The position numbers and the translations under genes were made by a program. The notes beneath the pieces are model-generated. The model did no database searches. It was given only the letters and a program-made list of their open reading frames with translations, and was not told the origin of the DNA. 64,000 nt of DNA, from NCBI RefSeq assembly GCF_000382325.1, contig NZ_KB908057.1, positions 302,783-366,782 of the forward strand, in the 5' to 3' direction. This document shows, piece after piece, positions 6,759 to 7,340 of this stretch. The DNA is from Woodsholea maritima DSM 17123. GTDB taxonomy: Bacteria; Pseudomonadota; Alphaproteobacteria; Caulobacterales; Maricaulaceae. Position 1 is the first letter of the stretch; each line of letters begins with the position of its first letter.

Positions 6759-7026
6759 GGTATACTCCCTATAGGCGCTTTATCGTGAAACGTCATCTTT
6801 TGTGGGCGCGTCTGTGCGGTTGGGTCACACCCGAACGCCACAAGACGAGCCTAAAACACGTTTCGACTCCGTTACGATATAGACAAGTGTGTGACGGTCT
6901 GGTAAAGCGCGCGCCTTACTTAAGCGATCTCAAGCGCGGACCTCGGGAGCGAGTGGCTTCCAGTGACCGCACTGAAGTCTTTAACTCGCACCTCTTGGTG
7001 CATTGCAGAACTAGGGAGAGAGTACC
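6759..7026 (+). promoter_or_regulatory. rpsU/COQ9 divergent spacer with rpsU leader
   Basis: This 268-bp spacer separates the divergent COQ9 and rpsU genes. Just ahead of the rpsU ribosome-binding site (AGGGAGAG, 7013-7020) there is a perfect hairpin, GCACC-TCTT-GGTGC (6988-7001). The segment 6930-6987 is rich in local complementarity. Ribosomal protein leaders are often regulatory, but no known leader family was recognised here. No clear promoter hexamers were identified. Confidence 0.4.
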
Positions 7027-7263
7027 ATCGTTCAGATCGTCGTGCGCGATAACAACGTTGAGCAAGCGCTCAAAGCGTTGAAAAAGAAAATGCAGCGTGA
7101 AGGCACCTTCCGCGAGATGAAGCGCCGTAACCACTTCGAAAAGCCCTCTGAAAAACGCGCACGCCAAAAAGCTGAAGCGATCCGCCGTGCTCGCAAATTG
7201 GCCCGTAAGCGCGCTCAGCGCGAAGGCTTGATTCCCAAGCGTGCCAAGACTGGCCGCCGTTAA
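7027..7263 (+). CDS. rpsU: 30S ribosomal protein S21, apparent ATC start
   Basis: S21 is a small basic protein of the 30S subunit involved in initiation. The body is unmistakable: [21 protein letters not shown], then [20 protein letters not shown] and a basic tail. In relatives the protein begins M-V-Q-(I/V)-x-V-R-D-N-N. Here the codons are ATC GTT CAG ATC GTC GTG CGC GAT, so the position of the usual ATG is ATC (7027). A strong AGGGAGAG site ends 6 bases before it. The first ordinary start, GTG at 7042, would drop five conserved residues and put the ribosome-binding site 21 bases away. The coordinates assume ATC initiation (78 residues); a sequencing error is the main alternative. Confidence 0.85.
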
Positions 7264-7302: not shown

Positions 7303-7340
7303 AAAAATACCGCGCTGAGAGAGCTCAGTGCGGTATTTTT
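7303..7340. terminator. Bidirectional Rho-independent terminator
   Basis: A 17-bp stem with one wobble pair and a 4-nt AGAG loop is flanked by A5 on the left and T5 on the right. It lies between the convergent ends of rpsU and the AhpD-like gene and can serve both. Confidence 0.9.

Follow-up and report, generated by a model that had tools for sequence, protein, structure and literature searches.

A conserved near-cognate start codon on rpsU of Woodsholea maritima and its relatives suggests a ribosomal protein held back at initiation

Genes for ribosomal proteins are generally regarded as efficient AUG starters, and ribosomal protein S21 (bS21, encoded by rpsU) itself takes part in initiation. 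Here, we ask why rpsU of Woodsholea maritima seems to open with AUC, i.e. whether translation begins at this codon at all and, if it does, what such a start could mean for the supply of the protein. The gene lies in a stretch of 64,000 nucleotides (the window, to which all positions refer), and its features are as follows:

7012–7014, forward strand: in-frame TAG that closes the rpsU frame upstream; no ATG, GTG or TTG from this TAG to codon 6
7013–7020, forward strand: Shine-Dalgarno-like AGGGAGAG, with the GGAG core at 7015–7018 and 8 nt between core and start codon
7027–7029, forward strand: putative AUC start codon of rpsU; the aligned codon is ATC in 65, ATA in 3, CTG in 1 and ATG in 41 of 110 same-family genomes
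7027–7263, forward strand: rpsU coding region (ribosomal protein bS21), 78 codons plus the stop TAA (7261–7263)
7042–7044, forward strand: GTG, codon 6, the first standard start downstream; rejected as start
7303–7340, forward strand: inverted repeat AAAAATACCGCGCTGAG-AGAG-CTCAGTGCGGTATTTTT, a probable terminator, read by eye

The preliminary description of this locus had recognised, behind a ribosome-binding site, the S21 N-terminus with ATC in place of ATG. The sequence reads as claimed (ATC 7027 is followed by GTT CAG ATC GTC GTG CGC GAT AAC) and the product matched two S21 models above their family cut-offs (PF01165, 72.7 bits, cut-off 27; TIGR00030, 65.7 bits, cut-off 28.95), with scores that dropped to 65.6 and 61.1, respectively, when the protein was read from GTG 7042. 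A genome-wide search returned a single S21 match, the gene at 7027–7263. The flanking genes, encoding a COQ9-family and a CMD-family protein, both lie on the opposite strand, and since the inverted repeat follows at 7303–7340, rpsU is probably transcribed alone. This repeat was absent from the output of the terminator scan, the promoter scan found nothing at rpsU, and Rfam gave no matches. Folding of the rpsU start region yielded z-scores of 1.10 (71 nt) and -1.84 (131 nt), and the 39 structure matches, as judged by name and score, included no S21 solved in a close relative.

We followed the start codon through the host's family (137 genomes, 121 matching, 110 of those read) and through its order, for which 79 genomes from four further families (f2-f5) were added to the 110 (189 genomes; the loci of the order, like those of the class below, are mostly best-scoring or hand-picked and form a non-random sample). 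Within the family, the non-ATG genes came from 69 genomes and ten genera, among them Robiginitomaculum (recognised by matching rpsU start regions; Maricaulales, Alphaproteobacteria, in the NCBI taxonomy), and the ATG genes from 41 genomes and eight genera, with proteins that begin MVEIYVRQNNV or MIEIYVRQNNV. The further families gave ATC 21, ATA 7 and ATT 3 (f2); CTG 11 and ATC 2 (f3, n = 13, which we infer to be Caulobacteraceae); CTG 12, ATC 7 and TTG 1 (f4, some genomes of which are Aquidulcibacter); and ATC 8, TTG 4 and CTG 3 (f5, some of which are Marinicaulis; both names come from identical rpsU start regions). Near-cognate codons, which the preliminary description had proposed to look for at this position in relatives, were thus found: 148 of the 189 order genomes are non-ATG (ATC 103, CTG 27, ATA 10, TTG 5, ATT 3, GTG 0), representing 48 genera, against 8 ATG genera (all from the host's family), and no genus is mixed. 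Put differently, a start other than AUG, GUG or UUG (i.e., ATC, ATA, ATT or CTG) is conserved in 143/189.

A sequencing error at 7027, another concern raised at the outset, is ruled out, since 103 genomes of the order (counting that of the window) have ATC there. Closely related genes with ATG at this codon had been named beforehand as evidence against an AUC start, and such genes do exist (41 of 110 family members); yet none of the 41 has GGAG within 20 nt upstream of rpsU, as compared with all 69 non-ATG members. Because the ATG genes are devoid of this core, a rebuilt start site in these relatives fits better than an error here, and as their ATG stands at the very same codon it confirms the position of the start.

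Could translation really begin at another codon, be it GTG 7042 (codon 6) or a standard codon upstream? In the frame of the window's rpsU, no standard codon precedes GTG 7042, and some in-frame ATG, GTG or TTG occurs upstream of codon 1 in 78 of the 143 order genomes that start with ATC, ATA, ATT or CTG. These upstream codons, however, sit at varying distances, and 63 of the 143 have an in-frame stop and no standard start before codon 1 (in the remaining 2, no stop was encountered in the DNA read). In the window, an upstream start is excluded by the TAG at 7012. As had been stated at the outset, a start at GTG 7042 would lie 21 nt after AGGGAGAG and cost five residues, and codon 6 is GTG in just 83 of the 148 non-ATG order genomes. 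Twenty of the 143 (16 genera) lack any standard start between the upstream stop and the end of codon 6 (the earliest appears at codons 11-22), so that, given also the patchy occurrence of GTG at codon 6, no standard codon can be the general start of rpsU. We therefore give initiation elsewhere next to no credence, the more so since the ATG of the 41 relatives stands at codon 1. On comparative sequence grounds, AUC at 7027 is almost certainly the real start.

Additional evidence came from the wider class, in which 139 genomes matched and 70 further alphaproteobacterial loci were taken, 69 of them readable (L314, in which the rpsU motif was not found, was left out, and L275, read by eye, was entered as GTG). 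Their starts were GTG 39, TTG 10, ATG 9, ATC 6, ATA 3 and CTG 2; thus, GTG or TTG accounts for 49/69, and ATC, ATA and CTG recur in 11/69. The GTG starts of the class, and most of the TTG and ATG starts, fall on the Val codon, which is the next one inwards. Among 80 named loci, largely from Bradyrhizobium and its kin, the starts were GTG 66, TTG 8, CTG 3, ATC 2 and ATG 1 (some named loci duplicate unnamed ones: L033 = L136, L041 = L140). Where the Val codon is other than a standard start, the preceding codon is start-like in 212/212 loci, as opposed to 8/125 where the Val codon is a standard one, and the contrast persists if collapsed by family, genus and codons (85/85 vs. 2/48). To us, no other evidence speaks as strongly for ATC, ATA, ATT and CTG as start codons in these genomes. 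Four Bartonella loci, together with L045, L281, L282 and L330, have a GTG preceded by a start-like codon and were entered under GTG; in the Bartonella loci (L065, L094, L100 and L103) rpsU reads ATC GTG or ATA GTG right after TAA or TAG, which leaves two adjoining start candidates.

As a control, rpsT (another small 30S gene) begins with ATG in all 30 class loci read (40 of 41 genomes matched) and in all 28 read from the host's family (30 genomes searched). For rpsU outside the class, we took the 30 genomes of the phylum with the best matches (probably beta- and gammaproteobacteria); ATG starts the gene in 29 of them and, as it appears, TTG in one (L430). The feature is thus neither general to rpsU nor shared by the other ribosomal gene of these genomes. 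The second codon of rpsU is never GTG in the order (0 of 145 Val codons in non-ATG genomes), which proves nothing, since the same holds in the ATG genera (0/34).

The start codon travels together with its ribosome-binding site. The contrast in GGAG described above (69/69 vs. 0/41) is peculiar to rpsU in so far as, upstream of rpsT, GGAG occurs in 3/14 genomes with a non-ATG rpsU and in 0/14 with an ATG rpsU. The mean estimated Shine-Dalgarno pairing energy in the host's family is -9.2 kcal/mol for the 69 non-ATG members vs. -6.3 kcal/mol for the ATG ones (the rows are related, so that a test value computed from them is not a probability), and -8.3 kcal/mol was obtained for the genus of this genome; all energies were computed by RNAduplex against a 12-nt 16S tail, i.e. 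with another program than that used in PMC9976891. A weak rpsU start is not universal, for ATG genes with a strong Shine-Dalgarno exist in the class (nine rows in which the Val position is itself the ATG start, averaging -13.1 kcal/mol). In the ATG genera (L149-L190), many genomes carry an AGAAA..GAGTTGA-like stretch upstream of rpsU in place of GGAG, perhaps a pairing partner for the very 3' end of 16S rRNA, or else something different.

The same architecture recurs at infC, which in this genome (L231, G000:C2:82552-83052, outside the window) starts with ATA behind GGGAGAAG. Among 30 infC loci of the order, 24 were readable and had ATA (19) or ATC (5). In eight genomes of ATG-rpsU genera (rpsU was read in seven of them) infC keeps GGAG with ATA or ATC. 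Hence, the start sites of infC and rpsU are of one type (GGAG plus AUH), and GGAG is missing at rpsU in the group that has AUG there.

To see how the codon has changed, we used a quick and rough tree of 257 rpsU sequences with the first codons removed (rough because the gene is short). At least 48 changes of start-codon identity were counted over the whole tree, and at least 22 within the order, as compared with 36 at codon 2 and 27 at codon 4. A single branch (SH-aLRT 99) sets apart 39 of the 41 ATG rows on one side, which makes them, as far as this gene can tell, essentially one group, whose ATG may have arisen by change or by transfer. The codon therefore turns over in the order, but it does so within the weak set. 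One could argue that a good Shine-Dalgarno makes AUG dispensable and that the codon merely wanders, as the variety of start codons and the GGAG of all 69 non-ATG family members would allow. Against such drift, the at least 22 changes in the order led, in the genomes read, to ATG about once and never to GTG, and the ATG group has no GGAG at rpsU although infC in eight genomes there kept GGAG with ATA or ATC. We consider drift very improbable and the weak codon, judging by these comparisons, probably kept by selection.

What would be selected can be framed through IF3, which is thought to accept GTG and TTG starts, and ATC, ATA, ATT and CTG make up the class of start codons that it rejects. In the mechanism that we propose, translation of rpsU would begin at AUC 7027, which the GGAG element would set in the P site and the initiator tRNA would read by two of three base pairs; S21 would begin with fMet-Val-Gln-Ile. 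Initiation would be inefficient, and the weak codon would be conserved because S21 synthesis thereby stays low. Since the codons of rpsU belong to the class rejected by IF3, S21 output would probably fall when IF3 is plentiful and rise when it is scarce, as for infC. By this analogy, which the preliminary description had already drawn, the action of IF3 through the weak start codon of rpsU is a serious candidate to which we give slightly less than even weight, and the entire chain (an AUC start, weakness conserved for low S21, a response to IF3) is placed at about the same level, marginally on the doubtful side. It would in any case not be general: GTG or TTG starts prevail in the other alphaproteobacteria (49/69), TTG is found in 5/148 order genomes, and the ATG rpsU genes with a strong Shine-Dalgarno likewise speak against a general rule. 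The published side of the argument is that IF3 raises the dissociation of non-canonical initiation complexes (PMC8266586) and that AUU and AUA starts of Staphylococcus aureus yield about 10% of AUG, and up to 30% for one of them in rich medium (PMC13009471).

Nearly as likely as an S21 output that is both limited and following IF3 is a static tuning, in which the weak start fixes a low output irrespective of IF3 or S21 levels; taken by itself, we hold it as a tentative reading. It is favoured by the turnover of the codon among different IF3 classes (GTG, TTG, CTG, ATC, ATA, ATT), as if only the level mattered, and by pcnB, which is described as simply limited by its AUU (PMC13009471, PMC1780047). 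It accounts less readily for the fact that 143 of the 148 non-ATG starts in the order belong to the class rejected by IF3, and that infC, the second gene in which such a start was seen, is the known IF3-controlled gene.

A further possibility is that S21 controls itself, i.e. that 30S subunits devoid of it are less strict, or make better use of GGAG, and so initiate more often on rpsU. S21 is described as joining the 30S subunit late and binding loosely (PMC10931766), and S21-free ribosomes of Flavobacterium as favouring rpsU (PMC9976891). The Flavobacterium device, however, is an exceptionally strong Shine-Dalgarno (below -13 kcal/mol) against an estimated -8.3 here, and S21 of Escherichia coli is said to aid Shine-Dalgarno pairing, which would give the opposite sign (PMC10931766); we deem self-control unlikely. 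More broadly, the order might couple S21 supply to start-codon fidelity, output being set via the near-cognate start either by IF3 or by the fraction of 30S subunits devoid of S21, a conjecture that we advance with some reserve. If it is true, the cell would sense the composition of its 30S subunits through the stringency of start-codon selection, and S21 would be a ribosomal protein kept limiting on purpose, which gives rise to mixed ribosome populations.

Returning to the proposed IF3-responsive start, its closest counterpart is infC, with a near-cognate codon (AUU, AUA or AUC) behind a GGAG-type Shine-Dalgarno, and with IF3 autocontrol demonstrated for the E. coli gene (as cited in PMC1780047 and PMC13009471); there the regulated protein is the regulator, whereas S21 would not be. 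Conserved near-cognate starts that lower output are also described for pcnB (AUU) and the S. aureus genes ccpN (AUA) and cvfC1 (AUU; PMC13009471, PMC1780047), none of them a ribosomal protein gene, and extended Shine-Dalgarno sequences are described for the S. aureus sites (PMC13009471), unlike the moderate one found here. Flavobacterium johnsoniae shares the gene and the control of S21 synthesis at initiation (PMC9976891), proposed in our case; there, S21-free ribosomes are described as reading the exceptionally strong Shine-Dalgarno, and here a weak start codon is combined with a moderate one. At -8.3 kcal/mol for the genus, and -9.2 kcal/mol on average for the 69 non-ATG family members, rpsU falls short of the Bacteroidota-type value. 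In Caulobacter crescentus, mapped starts include 0.7% CTG and 0.25% other near-cognates (PMC4117421), which recalls the CTG of 11/13 f3 genomes; neither rpsU nor S21 occurs in the main text of that paper, and its gene list (Dataset S1) may include rpsU. No report of a near-cognate rpsU start was found in the literature searched, a body to which most subscription papers do not belong.

These comparisons suggest that synthesis of S21 begins at a weak, conserved start site of the same build as the one at infC, and that the cell holds back, and perhaps regulates, the amount of the protein. Thus, rpsU would extend the short list of conserved cases (infC, pcnB, ccpN, cvfC1), with nearly a whole order, including by inference the relatives of Caulobacter, keeping AUC, AUA, AUU or CUG on one ribosomal protein gene. 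Whether S21 is deliberately limiting becomes accessible to a one-codon experiment, and we predict that gene finders restricted to ATG, GTG and TTG truncate or miss rpsU in these genomes.

As a minor observation, the nucleotide immediately before the start codon (the 7025-7026 region in the window) is C in 129 of the 148 non-ATG order genomes, and C also precedes most infC starts in the order loci inspected.
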